Source: an uncultured bacterium
GTDB lineage: Bacteria > Verrucomicrobiota > Kiritimatiellia > CAIKKV01 > CAITUY01
Reading direction: 5' to 3'
DNA: 34,593 nt
Assembly (NCBI GenBank): GCA_903958395.1
Contig: CAJBSZ010000207.1
Location: forward strand, 1-34,593
The notes below the pieces were generated by a model. It was given only the letters and a program-made list of their open reading frames with translations, was not told where the DNA came from and ran no database searches. Of the stretch, positions 16,620 through 29,326 are shown piece after piece; positions within the stretch are counted from its first letter, which is position 1; each line of letters begins with the position of its first letter. Made by a program: the position numbers and the translations under genes.

Positions 16620-19010
16620 CTACTTCACCGGCGGCCTGGGAGGGAGGTCATCCGCGGCAATCGGAATCCACAGCTTCTCCTTGTTGTCGTATATCCAGTT
16701 GCCCAGTGATTTGGGCAGCCCTTCCTTGCGCAACCGTTCAAAGGCGGACTGCTCCAACAAACCAATGTGTGACGTGTCGATTTCCTTAAAGCCAAGTTTC
16801 AGGGCCGGTGACTCCGGTTTGAGCCTGAAGTCCAACTTCTCCGGATCGACGAAGAGCGGATCAGCCACAATGCTGCCAGTATCGATCCCCTTTTTCTGGA
16901 GTTTGGCGATGGCCTGCTCATTGGCCTGGCGCGTCGCCGGATCGGGACTGTAGAGAAGATTGCTGCTCGAGGGGATCGGACAATACCTTCCGACTCCTCG
17001 CAGCAGTTCCGCGCGAATCGGCTTGCCGCCCGTGGGATTGGTGCCCACTACGATGTTCCGCTCGACCTTGGGCGACAAGTTCAATGCCTTAGCCAAATCG
17101 CCATCGAATTTGTTTTGGCCGCCGGCAAGGTTGAGGAAATTTTCCCCATGAGGCCAGTAAGCGATGTTGTTGATCGAGGTGTTGATATTCTTGAGGGTAT
17201 AGCCCATCGCGCCCAAATTGATGTTCTCCGTGATAAGCGTGCCGTATTGGTCGTCGTCACAGCGGAACGTGCCGCCATAGCCGACGTTATACATGAGATT
17301 ACGCCGGACCGTGTTGTCCAAGCCCGTGGCGGTCAAATAGACGCAGTTTCCGTCTCCCAGCCACTGGACGCAGTTGTGGACCTCGTTGTCCTGGATCAGG
17401 TTGTGTCGCGAATGGATGAACCGGAAGCACTCCCAGTAATTTTCCGGCGAGCCGATCTCCTTGCGACGGAAAATCCGCTGCCACTCCCGGCGATCATGCG
17501 ACTGTTGATGGCCGTTTTTCCAAAACGTAATGCCATCTTTTAACTTGAGCGTATCGAACTCGCGCGCCCTTACCCCCACCACGCCGAGTCCATCATACGG
17601 CATGTCGTGGATACGATTGTTGAGAATCTCGTTGTGTCCGCTCTGCATGATCAGCAGCCCGAACCCATGCCAAAGGATCTGTCCGCAGCGGGTGATCTCG
17701 TTATTCACAATCCGGTTGTGGTGGTTGGCGTCTTTCGTGCCGGGACCGTAGCCAAACAGGAGAACCCCGGTCAGCCCGAGATCGCTGAACTTGGAATTTT
17801 GAACGACATTCTTCTGCGCGTGCAGGTCCATTCGCAGCCCGGTCTCTCCAGAACGGGTGAATGTACAACCATCGACAACGCACCCCTCGGCGCCCCGAAA
17901 TCGCAAAAGCGCGTTGTCAGCATCGTAGATCTCCCAGTCATGCCCACCGCCTTTGGTTTCTGAAGTCCAGGTGTAGCGGTCCGCTTCACAAAACGTCAGG
18001 CCTTTGAAGCTGAGGTTACGAACCGGCTCATCCGCCGGCCCGTCATGGTCGATGTTGCCCTCAACACGGACCAATTCCGTGAGCGTCGGTGCACACACGT
18101 GCTTCAATTGCTCATCGTTCTCAGGCCAGAAATAGAGTTTCCGCTCCGAGGTGTTGAGCACCCATTCGCCCGGCTGGTCGAGCGCTTCCGGCACATTCTC
18201 CACCCACACCGTTTCCTTGATGTAGAATTTGCGGCTGCGTTCCACCCGCGCCATAAGATAGGTAGCCGGCACCGTCGTGATCGCCCGTTTGGCGGTCACA
18301 TCCACCGACTTTAGAGGCAGCATATTGTCAATCCACATGCAGCTGGGAATGATATGTATCTCCACGTCCTGAAGGTTGGGCCAGTTCCGGAGCGCCCCCT
18401 CGGGAAAATCCAGTTCGTCCCCATTGGCGTAGAACTGCCCCCCTCCCGGCCCATCCGTGTCAACACGGCGCGTCGGGGCAAAGCCCGAGCCGCGCGCCCG
18501 AGACAGGCGTTTGTCATTAGCATAAAGCGTCTTGAACATCCAAACCCCGCCTTTGCCGGGATGCTCGGGCACTTCCGCCACCCAGAGCTTGCCTTGAGCC
18601 GCCTGCGGGAATCCCTCCGGCAACGTCTCCACCTTCTTCCACCCGGAGATCGGATGGGCCGAGCTTATCACCGGTGTTTCGCCAGGCGCCGCCTGCAGCA
18701 CCGTGCGCCCGTCCTTTGCCGAGTCTTCCATTGAAAAGACCAGCGTGCGGCTGAGCCGGTACGTGCCTCCCTTGAGGTTTACCCTGATCTCCTTTTCCTC
18801 CGATCGGGCCCGAACCGCGCGCACTTCGTCCCGGGCACGTTCCAGGGTGGCAAAGGGTTTCTCCTCGGTTCCCGGGTTGCGGTCGTTGCCTTCGGGGGAT
18901 ACCCAAATAGGATTCGCGTGAAGGTTGGCCATTGCCAGGAGGCCAGTGAGCGGCAAGCAGAGCTTGCGGACCAAAACTCTTTTGGATCGGATGCGGTGTG
19001 GGGTTGTCAT
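16620..19010 (-). CDS. Secreted right-handed beta-helix protein, GH141-like
   Basis: This exported protein has 796 residues and a signal peptide at about 10-32. The mature N-terminus reads WVSPEGNDRNPGTEEKPFAT, followed by SAHPISGWKK and KTLYANDKRLSRARG, a layout I associate with GH141 and related beta-helix glycosidases (fucosidase or xylanase activity in characterised members). The centre carries stacked beta-helix coils rich in Asn and Gly, such as HNRIVNNEITRCG and HNLIQDNEVHNC. A C-terminal ADPLFVDPEKLDFRLKPESP segment is typical of secreted beta-helix proteins. It is the stand-alone paralogue of the beta-helix part of the 11508-15446 fusion and ends shortly after FERLRKEG. Its ATG overlaps the preceding small gene as ATGA behind AAGGAG. 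It may cleave or bind the target glycan. GH141 membership is a judgement from memory. Confidence 0.85.
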   Translation of the reverse strand: MTTPHRIRSKRVLVRKLCLPLTGLLAMANLHANPIWVSPEGNDRNPGTEEKPFATLERARDEVRAVRARSEEKEIRVNLKGGTYRLSRTLVFSMEDSAKDGRTVLQAAPGETPVISSAHPISGWKKVETLPEGFPQAAQGKLWVAEVPEHPGKGGVWMFKTLYANDKRLSRARGSGFAPTRRVDTDGPGGGQFYANGDELDFPEGALRNWPNLQDVEIHIIPSCMWIDNMLPLKSVDVTAKRAITTVPATYLMARVERSRKFYIKETVWVENVPEALDQPGEWVLNTSERKLYFWPENDEQLKHVCAPTLTELVRVEGNIDHDGPADEPVRNLSFKGLTFCEADRYTWTSETKGGGHDWEIYDADNALLRFRGAEGCVVDGCTFTRSGETGLRMDLHAQKNVVQNSKFSDLGLTGVLLFGYGPGTKDANHHNRIVNNEITRCGQILWHGFGLLIMQSGHNEILNNRIHDMPYDGLGVVGVRAREFDTLKLKDGITFWKNGHQQSHDRREWQRIFRRKEIGSPENYWECFRFIHSRHNLIQDNEVHNCVQWLGDGNCVYLTATGLDNTVRRNLMYNVGYGGTFRCDDDQYGTLITENINLGAMGYTLKNINTSINNIAYWPHGENFLNLAGGQNKFDGDLAKALNLSPKVERNIVVGTNPTGGKPIRAELLRGVGRYCPIPSSSNLLYSPDPATRQANEQAIAKLQKKGIDTGSIVADPLFVDPEKLDFRLKPESPALKLGFKEIDTSHIGLLEQSAFERLRKEGLPKSLGNWIYDNKEKLWIPIAADDLPPRPPVK

Positions 19011-19350: not shown

Positions 19351-19369
19351 TGTCGCTAAAATAGTGACA
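19351..19369. promoter_or_regulatory. Palindromic operator candidate in divergent promoter region
   Basis: The sequence TGTCGCTAAAATAGTGACA is a 19-base inverted repeat with eight-base arms (one mismatch) and a three-base centre. It lies between the divergent sensor kinase gene and the long minus-strand operon. A second site with the same left arm lies at 21899-21917 before GH3, identical at 14 of 19 positions. A -10-like CATACT (19392-19397) lies 32 bases from its centre on the plus side, and TATCAT (19323-19318, minus strand) lies 37 bases away on the other side. It is a natural candidate binding site for the adjacent NarL-type regulator. The link to that protein is inference. Confidence 0.5.
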
Positions 19370-19411
19370 CGCCGACGGACCCGAGTGCCCCCATACTGTT
19401 TGACTGCCATC

Positions 19412-19434
19412 CCCGAAGCGCGTTACGCTTCGGG
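19412..19434 (+). promoter_or_regulatory. Nine-base-pair hairpin directly before the sensor kinase start
   Basis: CCCGAAGCG and CGCTTCGGG form a perfect nine-base-pair stem around a CGTTA loop. It ends three bases before the ATG at 19438, where no Shine-Dalgarno sequence is visible. If transcribed, it would fold over the ribosome entry region and could lower kinase translation. It could instead be a protein-binding inverted repeat. No run of T follows, so a terminator is unlikely. Confidence 0.45.
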
Positions 19435-19437
19435 CCA

Positions 19438-21213
19438 ATGATAAATCCGGCGTCCATGTTCCCCTTGACCCTCGTGATAGGGCTTCTCGCGGCTTTGCGG
19501 CCCACGATCGCTCCGGCGGCATTGGAACTGCGCGAAGTGGTGCTCGACGGCAAGACGTACCACCTCGCAACGCCGGCGGGGCGGGATCACCTTGAAAAGA
19601 CCACTCCCCGGATCTTCATTCCAGCGGGCACGCGCAAGGCGATCTTCCACATGGACGAGCGGAATGAGCCCGGCCAACCGCAGCACCGCCTCCGCTATAA
19701 GCTCGAGGGGCATGACACCACGTGGCGTGACATTGACCAGGACTACGGCATGCGAATCATGGTCGGATATGTGGATGACGAAATGCATCCGCTCGGCGCG
19801 CTCACCGAAACCCACGCGGGCGAATCCCCCGGATGGCGAGGATCCCCAGCCAACTCGCCCTTCCAGCCTTTCGCCAAGTCAGGAGTCGCGCCCGAGCGAA
19901 CTGCGGCGGTTCGCATTACCCTTTTCTCGCACGGCCTCCTGCCGCTCGTCGGGGCCTTGGCGGTCGACAATATCGTGCTACAAATCGTGACCCCTACCAC
20001 CCTGACCACCAACCGGATTCGCTTTGCGATCACGTCGGGCATCGCGCTGGACCAGCCGATGGGCGTGCCCACCGGCTGGATAAGGCAGGGGAAAAAGGGA
20101 GAAATCGCCCAATTGGCCATCCGCAATTCGCCCACTCCGCACCCGGTGTTCTATCTCTACGATGCCGACAAGGAGGAATTTGGGGTTTGGGCCTCGGATG
20201 GCCACCAGATCCGGGCACAACCAGGGGATGAAGTCACGCTCCGCTGGGAAGCGGCCTATAGCATCGGCGGGTTCGGCCCGGCCGTGGCAACCTACGGCCC
20301 CATCCCTCCCGGGGACTATCGTTTCAGGATCGCGGCGGCGACCCCCGACGGAACACTCACCGGCGAGGAGTTCTGGATTCCCGTGAAGGTCTATATCCCC
20401 CTCTACCGCCAAGCCTGGTTCTGGATGTTGCTTGGCTCTATCTTCTGCGTCATGCTGAGCATTGGCCTGCTCGTATTCCGGAACCGGCACATGCGCCAGA
20501 AGCTCAAGCTGCTGGAGTCTCAACAGGCAGTGGAAGAGGAGCGCACGCGGATTTCACGGGATCTCCACGATGATATCGGTGCCGGCCTGACGGAAATCGC
20601 CATGCAGTGTGGACTTATCCAGCAGGATCTGTCCGCCGTCACCATTCCCCCGAAGACCAATAGCCGGATCGCCCGTATTTGCGAGGCCGCAGTCGACCTG
20701 ACCCGCAAGGTGGATGAGATCGTATGGGCCGTCAATCCCTCCAACGATACCCTCTACCGCTTCGCCCATTACCTGGCCCAGACAACGCGACAGTCGCTCG
20801 ACGCCGTAGAGATGCCGTTGCGGTTCGAAATGCCGCAGGAGATCCCCTCCCTTCCGATGAGCGGGCAGATCCGGCACACACTTTTTCTCGTGGTACGTGA
20901 AGCCTTGGCCAACGCGATCAAACATGCCCAAGCCACCCGGATCCGCGTGGGCATCCGCCTCGCGGATCAAACACTGGCCCTTTGCATCGAGGATAATGGC
21001 CGCGGCATCGCCGTTCATCCCGAATCGCCTGTCGGGACCCAGAACGGGTTGCGCAACATGCGCCTCAGGATGGAGGAAATCGGCGGAGGCTTCACGCTCA
21101 CAAGCCAGCCCGGCCAATTCACGCGCGTCGAGATCACCCTGCCATTCCCGAAACTGAAAGGAGTCCGTCATGTCTTCAAACAAGGCTCGTCAAACCCGCA
21201 TCGTGATCGTTGA
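19438..21213 (+). CDS. Membrane sensor histidine kinase, HisKA_3 (NarX/LiaS-like) type
   Basis: This 591-residue kinase partners the next gene. A signal or first membrane segment is at residues 7-25. About residues 26-320 form an extracytoplasmic sensor of beta-sandwich character (FRIAAATPDGTLTGEEFWIP resembles Y_Y_Y-type domains), without the propeller repeats seen in many PVC and Bacteroidota glycan sensors. A membrane helix follows (residues 325-347). The phosphoacceptor box is ERTRISRDLHDDIGAGLTEI with His377. The ATPase domain has REALANAIKHAQATRI (N box), EDNGRGI (G1) and GTQNGLRNMRLRMEEIGG. The 3' end overlaps the regulator gene by 44 bases. The start is uncertain between 19438 and an ATG at 19456; neither has a clear ribosome site. 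It probably senses a breakdown product of the glycan handled by the divergent operon. Confidence 0.9.
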   Translation: MINPASMFPLTLVIGLLAALRPTIAPAALELREVVLDGKTYHLATPAGRDHLEKTTPRIFIPAGTRKAIFHMDERNEPGQPQHRLRYKLEGHDTTWRDIDQDYGMRIMVGYVDDEMHPLGALTETHAGESPGWRGSPANSPFQPFAKSGVAPERTAAVRITLFSHGLLPLVGALAVDNIVLQIVTPTTLTTNRIRFAITSGIALDQPMGVPTGWIRQGKKGEIAQLAIRNSPTPHPVFYLYDADKEEFGVWASDGHQIRAQPGDEVTLRWEAAYSIGGFGPAVATYGPIPPGDYRFRIAAATPDGTLTGEEFWIPVKVYIPLYRQAWFWMLLGSIFCVMLSIGLLVFRNRHMRQKLKLLESQQAVEEERTRISRDLHDDIGAGLTEIAMQCGLIQQDLSAVTIPPKTNSRIARICEAAVDLTRKVDEIVWAVNPSNDTLYRFAHYLAQTTRQSLDAVEMPLRFEMPQEIPSLPMSGQIRHTLFLVVREALANAIKHAQATRIRVGIRLADQTLALCIEDNGRGIAVHPESPVGTQNGLRNMRLRMEEIGGGFTLTSQPGQFTRVEITLPFPKLKGVRHVFKQGSSNPHRDR

Positions 21214-21838
21214 GGATGATGCCCGGCTACGCCGGGTGTACGCGGAGGTCTTCGAAAACGCGCGGAACTGCGCTGTTGTTGGGTCTTTTGCCGATGGCGC
21301 GAGCGCGATCAGCGGCGCTCCCCCGTTGAAGCCGGACGTGATCTTCATGGACATCAACCTGCCCGACACCACGGGTGTCGCCTGCGTGGAGACCCTGTCG
21401 CCGCTCCTGCCCGACTGCAGGATCCTGATGCTGACGATCTACCAGGATTCCGATGTCATCTTCAACGCGCTGGCCGCCGGTGCCCATGGCTATCTGGTGA
21501 AACCGATCATGCCCCGGGAAATGATCGCCTCGGTCGAAACGATCCAGTCCGGCGGCGCCCCGATAAGCCCCTCGATCGCCAGGAAAGTGATTGACTTCTT
21601 CCATCGCACGCCGCGGCCCGCCTCCGAGTCCCCCGCCCCGGATCTTATGCTGTCGGCCCGGGAGCAACAGGTGCTCGATCACCTGGTCAACGGGCTCTCC
21701 CAGAAGGAGATGGCCGACAACCTGGGCATCGCTATCTCAACCGTCAACACCTATGTGCAACGCATCTACGAGAAGTTGCACGTCCGCAGCCGCCGCGAAC
21801 TCATCGCCCAGCACACCCCGGGCAGAAACCAGGCGTAA
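21170..21838 (+). CDS. NarL/LuxR-family response regulator
   Basis: This 222-residue regulator is the cytoplasmic partner of the upstream kinase. The receiver domain (about residues 10-125) has the acidic pair VEDD, phosphoacceptor Asp61 in DVIFMDINLPD, Thr89 and Lys111 (GYLVKP). The C-terminal LuxR helix-turn-helix (about 155-215) reads LSAREQQVLDHLVNGLSQKE and continues to STVNTYVQRIYEKLHVRSR. GGAG in CTGAAAGGAGTCCGTC precedes the ATG, inside the end of the kinase gene. Proteins of this class bind DNA as dimers at inverted repeats, often next to the -35 element. Two similar 19-base palindromes, at 19351 and 21899, fit this and would let it control the divergent operon, its own operon and GH3. 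Confidence 0.95.
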   Translation: MSSNKARQTRIVIVEDDARLRRVYAEVFENARNCAVVGSFADGASAISGAPPLKPDVIFMDINLPDTTGVACVETLSPLLPDCRILMLTIYQDSDVIFNALAAGAHGYLVKPIMPREMIASVETIQSGGAPISPSIARKVIDFFHRTPRPASESPAPDLMLSAREQQVLDHLVNGLSQKEMADNLGIAISTVNTYVQRIYEKLHVRSRRELIAQHTPGRNQA

Positions 21839-21898
21839 GCCCGGGGACAACGCCGGCAGAGCCGCGTCAATCCCGCGACCAGATCCAGCTGGTCCTCC

Positions 21899-21917
21899 TG
21901 TCGCTAATTTCACGACA
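21899..21917. promoter_or_regulatory. Second palindromic operator candidate, upstream of GH3
   Basis: TGTCGCTAATTTCACGACA is an inverted repeat with perfect five-base outer arms (TGTCG and CGACA). It shares its first nine and last four bases with the 19351-19369 site. It abuts the -35-like element of the candidate GH3 promoter, so its centre would fall near -45 from the inferred transcription start, a usual position for an activator. The bound protein is inferred to be the response regulator encoded just upstream. Confidence 0.5.
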
Positions 21918-21946
21918 TGACGGGCAGGCGCCAACAGAGCTATAGT
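21917..21946 (+). promoter_or_regulatory. Candidate promoter of GH3 and UroD-like genes
   Basis: ATGACG (21917-21922) and TATAGT (21941-21946) are separated by 18 bases and match four of six and five of six positions of the sigma-70-type consensus. The -35 element touches the palindrome at 21899-21917. The inferred start near 21953 leaves a leader of about 70 bases before the GH3 ATG. Sigma-70-like recognition is assumed for this organism. Confidence 0.35.
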
Positions 21947-22023: not shown

Positions 22024-24294
22024 ATGAACCACAACGACCATGCTATCGAAATATTGATCCAGCGCATGACCCTCAAGGATAAGATTGCGCAGATCACCGG
22101 CATCTGGCTGCCCGACCTCCTGGAAGGGGATCGGTTGTCTCTCGAAAAGTGCCGAACCCTGATCCCCAACGGTATCGGCCATGTGTCCCAGTTCTCCTCC
22201 TGCGTGACGCTGGATCCCGCGACGCTCCGCCAAGTGGTCATGGATTTGCAGCATTATTTGAGAACCGAGACGCCCACGCGCATCCCGGCCATCTTCCACG
22301 AGGAGGCGATCACCGGTTTTGCCGCGCGCGGCGCGACGACCTTTCCCCAGCAAATAGGCATGGGCTGCTCGTGGAATCCCGAGCTGCTTGAGCGCAACAC
22401 CCGTGCCACGGCCCGCCTTATGCGGCAAATGGGGGCCACCCATGCCCTTTCCCCAATGCTCGACATCTGTCGCGATCCCTGTTGGGGCCGTGTTGAGGAA
22501 AGTTTCGGGGAGGACCCCTATCTATCCGCCCGAATGGGCCTGGCTTTCGTTCGCGGCCTGCAGGGAAACGACCTGGCCCAGGGAGTTGCGGCGACGAGCA
22601 AGCATTTCGCTGGTCATGGTGGGGGAACCGAGGATCCGCGAACCTTGTGGGAGGATATCCTGTTCCCCCACGAGGTCGCCATCCGCCTGGGCGGCGCCGA
22701 AAGCGTCATGCCCGGTTACCATAGTGTCAATGGCGTGCCCTGTACTGCCTCGAAGGAATTGTTCACGGATATCCTGCGAGACCTCTGGGGCTTCGAGGGT
22801 TTGGCGGTTTCCGATTATGGATCCGTCGAACAGGTCTTTTCCAACTTCAAGCAGGCGCCGGATGTCCAGGGTGCAGCCGTCAAATCCCTGCTGGCGGGCA
22901 TCGATGTCGAACTGCCGCGCGGTGTTGCCTACCCCTTGCTGGCCGCCGCGCTGCAGGCGGGAAATGTCGCGATGCCCGATATCGATCGGGCTGTCCGACG
23001 CGTCCTGCGGCTGAAGGCCCGGCTGGGCCTGCTCGCCGCAGAAACTCCCTTGACGTCCCAAGGCCCTATGGACATGGATCCACCTGAAAATCGGGCCTTC
23101 GCTTATGAATCCGCCTGCCAGGCCGTGGTCTTGCTGAAGAATGACGGAATTCTTCCCCTCGCCGGCATCCGTTCCATCGCCCTGGTTGGACCCAATGCCG
23201 ACGCCGTGCAGTCGCTGTGCGGCGATTACACCTACCAGTCACTCTCCGCCTATTGGTGGAATCTGCCCACCGATCCGGACCATCCCCGGCTCGTGACCCT
23301 GCTGGAAGGCCTTAAGGCTGCGGCCGCTGGCGCGGAGGTGCGCCATGAGCGTGGCTGCGACTGGTCCGGTCCCCTCGGCGCCGCAACGGATCCCTTGGAC
23401 TACTCGATCGGCGACGAGCGCCTTCGCAAACGCAAGGCCCAACAGCAGCGCTTGAGCGATCGCCCCACCGATCCCGAGCGGGCCGTGCAAATGGCCCGCG
23501 AAAGCGATGTGATCATCGCCGCCATGGGGGAAAATCTTTTCTTATGCGGCGAGGGACGCAACCGCACCCCGCCATGCCTCCCAGGTGACCAGGAGGCCTT
23601 CCTCGAGCAACTATCGCAGACCGGAAAGCCGCTGATCCTTGTCCTGTTCGGAGGGCGGCCCATGCTCCTCAATCGCGTCGAGCCCCTTTGCCGCGCGATC
23701 ATCCATGCCTGGTATCCCGGCGAGGAGGGAGGGAGGGCCGTTGCCGACATTCTCTTCGGCACCGTCAATCCCACAGCAAAATTGTGCATGTCCATACCGC
23801 ATGAGGACGCGAGTCAACCCAGTTGGTATGGTGACGGCTATCGCGCCAGACCGCTGTATCCGTTCGGGCATGGACTCAGTTACACTCGCTTTGGCTACCG
23901 TGACCTGGCCATGCCGCAAATGGCCAACCTCGGCGCGGAGTGGATCCCCATCAGTTTCACGCTTCAGAACGAGGGGCCACGGGAAGGAGCGGAAATCGCC
24001 CAGCTATACGTGCGGGATCCTTTGGGGGATCTTCGACTCAAGGGCTTCACCCGGGTGATGCTGGGTGTCGGCGAGTCCCGCCGGATCACCTTCCTGCTCT
24101 CCCCGCAGCAACTGGCGCGCCATGACGGCAACAAGGGCTTCGTCGTTATCCCCGGCTCGTATCAGGTCATGATCGGCGCTTCGTCGTTGGACGCACGCCT
24201 CTCGGCCCCCTTGACGCTCGACGGAAATCGAGTCGCAATCCGTAACCGTTCAACCTTCTTCAGTGAAACCGTGATCTCTGCGAACCCTCAATAA
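22024..24294 (+). CDS. Cytoplasmic GH3 glycosidase (beta-glucosidase/xylosidase type)
   Basis: I place the start at 22024 (MNHNDHAIEIL), not at 21955, because AAAGGA lies seven bases upstream and the family match begins here; this gives 756 residues. The N-terminal barrel has the GH3 marks KHFAGHG, ESVMPGYHSVNGVPCTASKE and the nucleophile in GLAVSDYGSVEQ (Asp264). The second alpha/beta domain contains CQAVVLLKNDGILPLAG and ALVGPNAD. The C-terminal fibronectin-III-like domain is seen in GAEIAQLYVRDP and LKGFTRVMLGVGESRRI. No signal peptide is present, so it probably acts in the cytoplasm on imported oligosaccharides, releasing terminal sugars. It lies directly downstream of the two-component genes with its own candidate operator and promoter. 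The sugar specificity is not determined. Confidence 0.93.
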   Translation: MNHNDHAIEILIQRMTLKDKIAQITGIWLPDLLEGDRLSLEKCRTLIPNGIGHVSQFSSCVTLDPATLRQVVMDLQHYLRTETPTRIPAIFHEEAITGFAARGATTFPQQIGMGCSWNPELLERNTRATARLMRQMGATHALSPMLDICRDPCWGRVEESFGEDPYLSARMGLAFVRGLQGNDLAQGVAATSKHFAGHGGGTEDPRTLWEDILFPHEVAIRLGGAESVMPGYHSVNGVPCTASKELFTDILRDLWGFEGLAVSDYGSVEQVFSNFKQAPDVQGAAVKSLLAGIDVELPRGVAYPLLAAALQAGNVAMPDIDRAVRRVLRLKARLGLLAAETPLTSQGPMDMDPPENRAFAYESACQAVVLLKNDGILPLAGIRSIALVGPNADAVQSLCGDYTYQSLSAYWWNLPTDPDHPRLVTLLEGLKAAAAGAEVRHERGCDWSGPLGAATDPLDYSIGDERLRKRKAQQQRLSDRPTDPERAVQMARESDVIIAAMGENLFLCGEGRNRTPPCLPGDQEAFLEQLSQTGKPLILVLFGGRPMLLNRVEPLCRAIIHAWYPGEEGGRAVADILFGTVNPTAKLCMSIPHEDASQPSWYGDGYRARPLYPFGHGLSYTRFGYRDLAMPQMANLGAEWIPISFTLQNEGPREGAEIAQLYVRDPLGDLRLKGFTRVMLGVGESRRITFLLSPQQLARHDGNKGFVVIPGSYQVMIGASSLDARLSAPLTLDGNRVAIRNRSTFFSETVISANPQ

Positions 24295-24322: not shown

Positions 24323-25405
24323 ATGACGAAACGCGAGATTATCAAGACCCTCTTGGCCAAGCAGCTTCCCGAGCGCGTGGGGTTGCACGAGCATTTCTGG
24401 CCCTACATCTGCGAGAACGCGTGGCAGCGGCAAGGCATTGCGCCCGGCACGGACTTCGTCCAGCGGTTTAACCTCGATCTGCGAAGCGTCGCCTGGTACA
24501 GCACACCCGCTCCGCGGCCGGATCTCGCCAAGGTCGCGGAGGAATCGGACGAGTGGGTAGTCAAGCGGGACGGCTGGGGCACCTCGCTAAAGACCTGGAA
24601 ATTCAAGGCCGGCACGCCGGAGCACGTGGACTTCACGGTAACGTCACCCGACGCATGGAGGCGGGAATTCCGCGACGCCTTCGAGGCGATCGACGTCCGC
24701 AAGAGTTTCGATTTCGCCACCATCAAGCAGAATTACACGAAGGCCATGGCCGGCGAGGAATTCGTCACCTACTCGGGGTTGTTCGTGTTCGAGGAAATGC
24801 GCCGGATCATGGGCGACGTCGCCATGCTCGAATCCCTGCTGCTGGAGCCGGAGTGGATTCACGACTTCAACACCCTGGTCACGCGCAAGTGCATGCAGTA
24901 TTTCGAGTACCTGTTCCGGGAGGTCGGCCTGCCCGACGGCATCCACATGTACGAGGATCTCGGCTACACGGCATCCTGCTTCGCATCTCCCGAGGCGCAC
25001 CGCGCGCTGGTGTTACCCTACCACAAGAAACTCTTCGGGATGTTCAAGGATTATAAGCTGCCCATCATCATGCACACCTGCGGCGATTTCCGGCCGCATC
25101 TCGACAGCATCGTCGAGGCCGGGGTGGATTGCATCCAAGCTTTGGAAGCCAAGACCGGCATGAACGTGGTGAAACTGGCGGAGCAGTACAAGGACAAGCT
25201 GTGCTTCATGGGCAACATAGACATTCGCGCGCTGGAAAGCGGCGACCGCGACCGCATCCGGGAGGAGTGCCTGGGCAAGCTCAACGGCATGAAAGCGTTG
25301 CGCGCCCCCTACATCTACATGTCCGACCACTCGATCCCACCCAGCGTTTCTTTGGCCGACTACGAATTCATGCTGCAACTATTCTGGCAGAACTGCCACT
25401 ATTAA
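24323..25405 (+). CDS. Second uroporphyrinogen decarboxylase-like protein
   Basis: This 360-residue cytoplasmic protein of the UroD/methyltransferase superfamily follows GH3 by 28 bases with an AGGAG site and is probably co-transcribed. The family core is IIMHTCGDFRPHLDSIVEAG, followed by VDCIQALEAKTGMN and LCFMGNIDIRALESGD. The HTC pair matches the zinc-binding His and Cys of MtaA/CmuA-type enzymes, and SDHSIP near the C-terminus may give a third ligand. It is clearly different from the 374-residue homologue in the divergent operon (a longer N-terminal segment rich in Trp and Tyr). Two such proteins in one glycan locus argue against haem synthesis and for a role in methyl transfer or another modification linked to the sugar. 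The substrate is unknown. Confidence 0.85.
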   Translation: MTKREIIKTLLAKQLPERVGLHEHFWPYICENAWQRQGIAPGTDFVQRFNLDLRSVAWYSTPAPRPDLAKVAEESDEWVVKRDGWGTSLKTWKFKAGTPEHVDFTVTSPDAWRREFRDAFEAIDVRKSFDFATIKQNYTKAMAGEEFVTYSGLFVFEEMRRIMGDVAMLESLLLEPEWIHDFNTLVTRKCMQYFEYLFREVGLPDGIHMYEDLGYTASCFASPEAHRALVLPYHKKLFGMFKDYKLPIIMHTCGDFRPHLDSIVEAGVDCIQALEAKTGMNVVKLAEQYKDKLCFMGNIDIRALESGDRDRIREECLGKLNGMKALRAPYIYMSDHSIPPSVSLADYEFMLQLFWQNCHY

Positions 25406-29304: not shown

Positions 29305-29326
29305 GCGCGTGAACATGTTACGTCGC
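29305..29326. promoter_or_regulatory. Imperfect palindrome upstream of the XRE gene
   Basis: The segment GCGCGTGAACATGTTACGTC, continuing GC, is centred on the perfect palindrome AACATGTT, with outer arms GCG and CGC. A TTGCGC element (29303-29308) and a CTAATT/TAATTA element 17 bases downstream could be a weak promoter overlapping it. It may be the operator of the small regulator, by analogy with autoregulated Cro/C proteins. The rest of the gap 29263-29380 shows nothing else recognisable. Confidence 0.3.

Follow-up and report, generated by a model that had tools for sequence, protein, structure and literature searches.

Two 19-bp palindromes flanking a two-component operon of an uncultured bacterium are most probably the operators of that system, at which its NarL-type regulator would activate, in a class II-like manner, both its own operon and a regulon for polysaccharide use. 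They lie in a stretch of 34,593 nucleotides, hereafter the window, which is contig 207 of a 5.2 Mb source genome (G000).

Two palindromes flank a two-component operon

Both palindromes (operators 1 and 2, Table 1) are present exactly as a prior sequence-only reading of the window had described them, with identity at 14 of 19 positions, and in each of them seven of nine base pairs are symmetric. The hexamers CATACT, TATAGT and ATGACG that the same reading had assigned to promoters were confirmed in the sequence, and the arrangement ATGACG-18-TATAGT at 21917-21946 was reported independently by a promoter scan. The palindromes had been said to flank a NarL-type regulator gene, which is correct, the full flanked unit being a two-gene operon of histidine kinase (HK) and response regulator (RR), whose first ATG lies 69 bp beyond the end of operator 1. 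A further 10-base match lacking the second arm, GTCGCTAATT at 29322, does exist, but its level is that of chance and we dropped it from the motif, because a simple count predicts one 10-mer match to either site in DNA of the window's size. A loose palindrome search confined to the window gave 7 matches against 4.7 expected, which is not significant. The presumed 5' UTR of the kinase gene also holds a GC-rich hairpin, CCCGAAGCGCGTTACGCTTCGGG (window 19412-19434; folding z -1.9), which ends 3 bases before the ATG.

Table 1. Coordinates of the features in the window, and location of a second class of sites in the source genome.
Feature	Position	Strand	Basis and remarks
Divergent exported beta-helix/GH141-like protein	16620..19010	-	Pfam; 359 bp from operator 1
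Operator 1, TGTCGCTAAAATAGTGACA	19351..19369	+	Between divergent beta-helix gene and HK-RR operon; sequence, member of genome-wide motif
-10-like CATACT (HK-RR promoter)	19392..19397	+	Starts 23 nt after last base of operator 1
Histidine kinase	19438..21213	+	Pfam, AlphaFold model; HisKA_3, HATPase_c and one TM helix behind an exported, all-beta N-terminal part with a Y_Y_Y-like domain
NarL/FixJ-type response regulator (receiver + GerE/LuxR HTH), proposed binder of both operators	21170..21838	+	Pfam, NCBIfam, PDB relatives, clade tree
Operator 2, TGTCGCTAATTTCACGACA	21899..21917	+	Upstream of GH3; sequence, member of genome-wide motif
-35-like ATGACG	21917..21922	+	Abuts operator 2 and shares its last A; sequence, promoter scan
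-10 TATAGT	21941..21946	+	Starts 24 nt after operator 2; sequence, promoter scan
GH3 glycoside hydrolase, proposed direct target	22024..24294	+	ATG at 22024, ORF open from TTG 21955; Pfam GH3 N, C, Fn3-like
URO-D-like protein	24323..25405	+	Pfam; 28-bp gap to GH3
TGTCATCARTTTTGATGACA sites	G000 contigs C83, C127, C150, C194, C436, C535 (L278, L326-L330, L280)		

The regulator gene encodes a receiver domain (PF00072, 3.8e-24, residues 11-122) and a C-terminal GerE/LuxR HTH (PF00196, 2.1e-16, residues 160-212), and the overlapping gene upstream supplies the HisKA_3 kinase partner (PF07730, 1.4e-9), the combination expected of the NarL/FixJ type. Its NCBIfam NarL match (1.9e-33) and its best PDB relatives, VraR (2e-38), NarL (1.5e-37) and DevR (2.4e-36), point the same way. 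The AlphaFold model of the kinase has a pLDDT of 77.8, and its sensor part is confidently modelled as all beta (pLDDT 87.5). Nine of ten sensors have a weak Y_Y_Y match (best 3.6e-7; the window's own copy falls below the curated cut-off), and the sensor sequence is weakly similar to Bacteroides HTCS sensors (structures 4a2l, 3ott), a similarity which hints that the exported domain may sense carbohydrates. Fold searches returned kinase domains for the full-length query, and TM-scores of at most 0.27 on the query for the sensor alone, naming no fold.

The motif recurs genome-wide at a fixed distance from promoters

Searching the source genome for TGTCRNNAWWWTNNYGACA with at most one mismatch yielded 16 sites, compared to 2 for a reversed-pattern control, and with zero mismatches 7 sites compared to 0. 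At two mismatches the pattern tried first equalled its control (29 versus 29), so sites were trusted at low mismatch only. Matches such as those on contigs C225, C153 and C41 were set aside for lying inside coding sequence, as were TGTCGCAAATTTTGCGACA in genomes G018 and G275 and similar palindromes in G032, which are probably coding. The operator consensus is TGTCRYNAWWWTNRYGACA, or, in degenerate letters, TGTCRYNA-N3-TNRYGACA; bases of the half-sites vary with their symmetry kept (TGTCGT...ACGACA, TGTCGC...GCGACA, TGTAGT...ACTACA). Rather than being scattered at random or through coding regions, which the sequence-only reading had named as the outcome that would count against a regulon, the motif is enriched over control and mainly intergenic. 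As expected of a regulon operator, its sites exceed controls and hold a fixed position relative to promoters, and we conclude that the two palindromes are real control sites, not chance occurrences.

This fixed position is apparent from 16 oriented promoters of the source genome and its close relative G005, which align without gaps. Directly 3' of the palindrome, most of the 16 carry TGAC (reading ATGACG), which we take to be the -35 element and not part of the operator, since it is frequent downstream and its mirror image is rarer upstream. The -10 element starts 23 nt past the palindrome, or 24 nt at some sites; in an offset test on 24 sites, which counted duplicated promoters once and included sites of further genomes, the TATAAT score peaked at offset 23 (3.41 versus a mean of 1.90; z 4.7-4.8 for the peak at 23/24). 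Assuming a transcription start 7 nt after the -10, the palindrome is centred at about -44/-45 and abuts a 4/6 -35, where a class II operator abuts or overlaps the -35 near -41.5, and from this geometry we infer compatibility with class II-type activation. The GH3 promoter in the window, ATGACG with TATAGT, matches the sigma-70 consensus at 9 of 12 positions. At C114:5282 and G604:C726 a -10 stands at offset 23-24 in both directions, which suggests a single operator serving divergent promoters.

Sites precede glycoside hydrolase, PATR and two-component genes

With few coding exceptions, the sites lie upstream of GH2, GH3, GH59, GH78, GH95 and GH106 genes, PATR surface protein genes and HK-RR operons, typically with 56-110 bp between palindrome and start codon (located sites of G000 and G005). 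HK-RR operons with a site are found in the source genome on C207 and C114, and divergently on C242; PATR genes with an upstream site lie on C46, C170, C242 and G005:C2. The glycoside hydrolases comprise GH95 and GH106 (both C114), GH59 (C480), GH78 (C62, G005:C359) and GH2 (G005:C2), to which a DUF5703/GH95-like protein (G005:C187) and the GH3 of the window are added. Sulfatase and UroD loci had been suggested at the outset as places to look for the motif; none of the located targets is a sulfatase, and the UroD-like gene is at most a downstream member of the GH3 operon, with which, judging from the spacing, it is possibly co-transcribed.

Whether operator 1 also acts on the divergent beta-helix gene is uncertain, although possible. 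Scored with model R1, operator 1 reaches 27.2 bits towards the beta-helix gene versus 22.5 towards the kinase, and a distantly similar beta-helix protein is encoded by the first gene downstream of the operator at L209:6094; the strand on the beta-helix side has no -10 at offset 23.

At L052:1845, L065:4406 and L165:3581, the promoters of GH106, GH59 and the DUF5703/GH95-like protein have some 100 bp of sequence surrounding the operator in common, in spite of the different genes they serve, as if one promoter module had been copied among these loci.

The operator follows one clade of regulators

In the source genome, the closest paralogues of the regulator are encoded on C114 (57%) and C242 (56%), and on both contigs a palindrome precedes the HK-RR operon; none of this type lies upstream of paralogues with lower similarity. 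As an independent test, foreign loci were fetched by regulator similarity alone and then scanned for the palindrome. In genome G094, from another family of the same class (regulator 54%), the 2.5 Mb hold just one zero-mismatch site, located upstream of the kinase gene. The 3.8 Mb of G603, the genome of locus L209 (regulator 57%), contain two, of which one directly follows the regulator gene and precedes a beta-helix gene, with the -10 TAACAT at 23. Two sites also occur in the 11 Mb of G604, the genome of locus L210 (regulator 55%). The first stands 103 bp upstream of the kinase gene, with the -10 TAGAAT at 24; a GDSL-lipase gene is divergent from that kinase, and the second site precedes a paralogue of this lipase gene. 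Under the stricter pattern, controls gave 0 in these genomes. At another locus, L218 (regulator 56%), TGTCATAAAGAAAACGACA lies upstream of the kinase gene.

The operator copy of G094 (L119:11827-11877) occupies the middle of a 51-bp perfect palindrome, in the region between kinase gene and divergent PATR gene. As it also lacks a -10 at offset 23, this copy could be a hairpin.

Of 65 regulators placed in a tree, the seven that stand beside a clear operator all belong to one 16-member clade (SH-aLRT 100), and a PWM scan detected operator variants beside most of the remaining members, with no site near member L224. The G475 locus carries TGTAGTAAAGATTACTACA twice, each time with a -10 at exactly 23 (TATAAT, TAAAAT), and a third copy elsewhere in that genome has TATTAT at 23. 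Planctomycetota-labelled loci have TGTRGAYAAAAT..GCGACA-like sites, several with a -10 at 23-24; the spread across phyla is provisional, since the names of these lake MAGs are submitters' labels, some of them (Akkermansia, Kuenenia) doubtful. Four genomes of the same genus that lack a close regulator contain no strong site, and G005, which is very close to the source genome and 78% complete, has sites with no close regulator detected. The expected conservation in relatives is borne out where the regulator clade is present, the motif being absent or at chance level elsewhere. Chance would place so many sites so close (within 400 bp) to clade operons with a joint probability of about 7e-20, a figure that conveys scale only, as it assumes random placement, with a site definition taken partly from the source genome and genomes partly chosen afterwards. 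Taken together, these sequence comparisons indicate that the NarL-type regulator very probably binds the palindrome.

Further putative operator classes differ in their inner bases

A second operator, TGTCATCARTTTTGATGACA (20 bp, TGTCATCA-N4-TGATGACA), occurs in nine exact copies in the source genome and, at up to two mismatches, in 12 copies versus 1 in the control. Most copies have a -10 at offset 23-24, and they lie upstream of exported GH106, GH127, GH67N/CBM6, DUF6055 and PATR genes. This operator may belong to a paralogous two-component system. Inner bases vary among the palindromes seen, from TGTCRYNA (19 bp) and the 20-bp form to TGTCGTAC-N4-GTACGACA (one copy) and TGTAGTAA (G475). It is conceivable, though less likely than not, that several paralogous systems of this lineage share one architecture (TGTC/GACA palindrome, ATGACG, 17-18 nt, -10) while reading different inner bases, operators and recognition helices having diverged in step.

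Two further palindromes were noted. At L282 (G000:C531:3634-3684), TGTCGTACATTTGTACGACA, possibly a third operator type, precedes ATGACA and a -10-like GATAAT beside a PATR-like ORF. In G320, of the same phylum, TGTCGACAGAATGTCGACA and near copies number 17 versus 0 in the reversed-pattern control, and are probably another operator or a repeat.

Proposed mechanism and alternative explanations

In the mechanism we favour, the exported all-beta sensor of the membrane kinase would detect a polysaccharide breakdown product or a surface signal, and the kinase would phosphorylate the NarL-type regulator. A regulator dimer would then sit on the palindrome directly upstream of the -35 and recruit RNA polymerase much as class II activators do, switching on its own HK-RR operon, the GH3 gene of the window and the other glycoside hydrolase and PATR genes.

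The same regulator could instead repress from the same operator, or act both ways, with the signal lifting the block. We consider this unlikely: the palindrome lies upstream of the -35 and at no site with a clear -10 does it overlap the -35/-10 interval, and several poor -10s (CATACT, TACCAT) suit activation, even if the GH3 promoter is close enough to the sigma-70 consensus to fire unaided and the site lies between kinase and regulator genes without a matching -10 at several Planctomycetota-labelled loci. Geometry alone does not identify the regulator, since the 20-bp operator class has similar geometry and no adjacent two-component system. That class, to which no regulator was assigned, is one of several observations that would suit an unlinked transcription factor (e.g. 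of LacI or GntR type) controlling the same genes, along with the distance of most sites from any two-component system, the G005 sites lacking a detected close regulator and a LacI-type gene upstream of the C62 site. Such a factor is nonetheless quite unlikely in view of the distant genomes, where the site is nearly unique with one copy beside HK-RR each time, the loci were found to have no genes in common but those of kinase and regulator, and the presence of the operator tracks a single clade of regulators.

It is very improbable that the palindromes are chance matches, a repeat element or hairpins copied along with duplicated promoters. Copying would explain the flank of about 100 bp common to C114:1845, C480:4406 and G005:C187:3581 and the nearly identical pair on C170, and the 51-bp hairpin of G094 and the insignificance of the window by itself fit this explanation as well; yet most copies have unrelated flanks and still an equal -10 offset, the two arms change in sequence without losing their symmetry, and the -10 peak survives counting duplicated promoters once.

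If regulator and operator are paired as we propose, the palindrome provides a searchable and testable operator for a two-component system whose exported sensor is linked to PATR surface proteins and glycoside hydrolases. Few operators have been described in such bacteria, our knowledge of which comes mostly from metagenomes. The motif allows target genes to be predicted from sequence and orphan enzymes to be sorted by the control they share, and its variants can be used to study how NarL-type regulators gain new specificity. Co-diverged operators and helices, if true, would amount to a naturally evolved specificity code among the NarL-type regulators that govern polysaccharide use.

Comparison with known systems

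NarL, VraR, DevR and UhpA likewise combine a receiver with a GerE/LuxR HTH, a HisKA_3 partner and a palindromic operator near the promoter. The NarL box consists of TACYNMT heptamers in a 7-2-7 arrangement, and the DevR box is GGGACT...AGTCCC. TGTCRYNA-N3-TNRYGACA resembles neither, and by inspection neither window palindrome contains TACYNMT heptamers in the 7-2-7 arrangement. Unlike these four systems, the one described here has a large all-beta exported domain as its sensor, and polysaccharide enzymes and PATR proteins as its targets.

Hybrid systems of the HTCS type control polysaccharide utilization loci in Bacteroidota (PMC3878776). Shared with them are the Y_Y_Y-like domain in an exported sensor, the control of glycoside hydrolases and the weak match to 4a2l and 3ott. 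In contrast, an HTCS is a single polypeptide that comprises sensor, kinase, receiver and an AraC-type HTH, whereas here kinase and regulator are separate genes, the kinase is of the HisKA_3 type and the output domain is a GerE/NarL-type HTH; Pfam scans of the window kinase and related kinases reported no beta-propeller repeats. A further comparison is with Pontiella agarivorans, of the PVC superphylum, in which HK (PF07730/PF02518) and RR genes lie near GH and sulfatase genes and substrate sensing was proposed (PMC10880615). These are two-component genes of the same sort, likewise next to polysaccharide genes, likened here by description only, and the portion of that account considered here defines neither an operator nor its targets nor the geometry of promoters (PMC10880615). 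In the literature searched, no operator of this kind was described. By its domains the regulator is a member of the NarL/FixJ family, and the predicted operator and regulon are newly described here.
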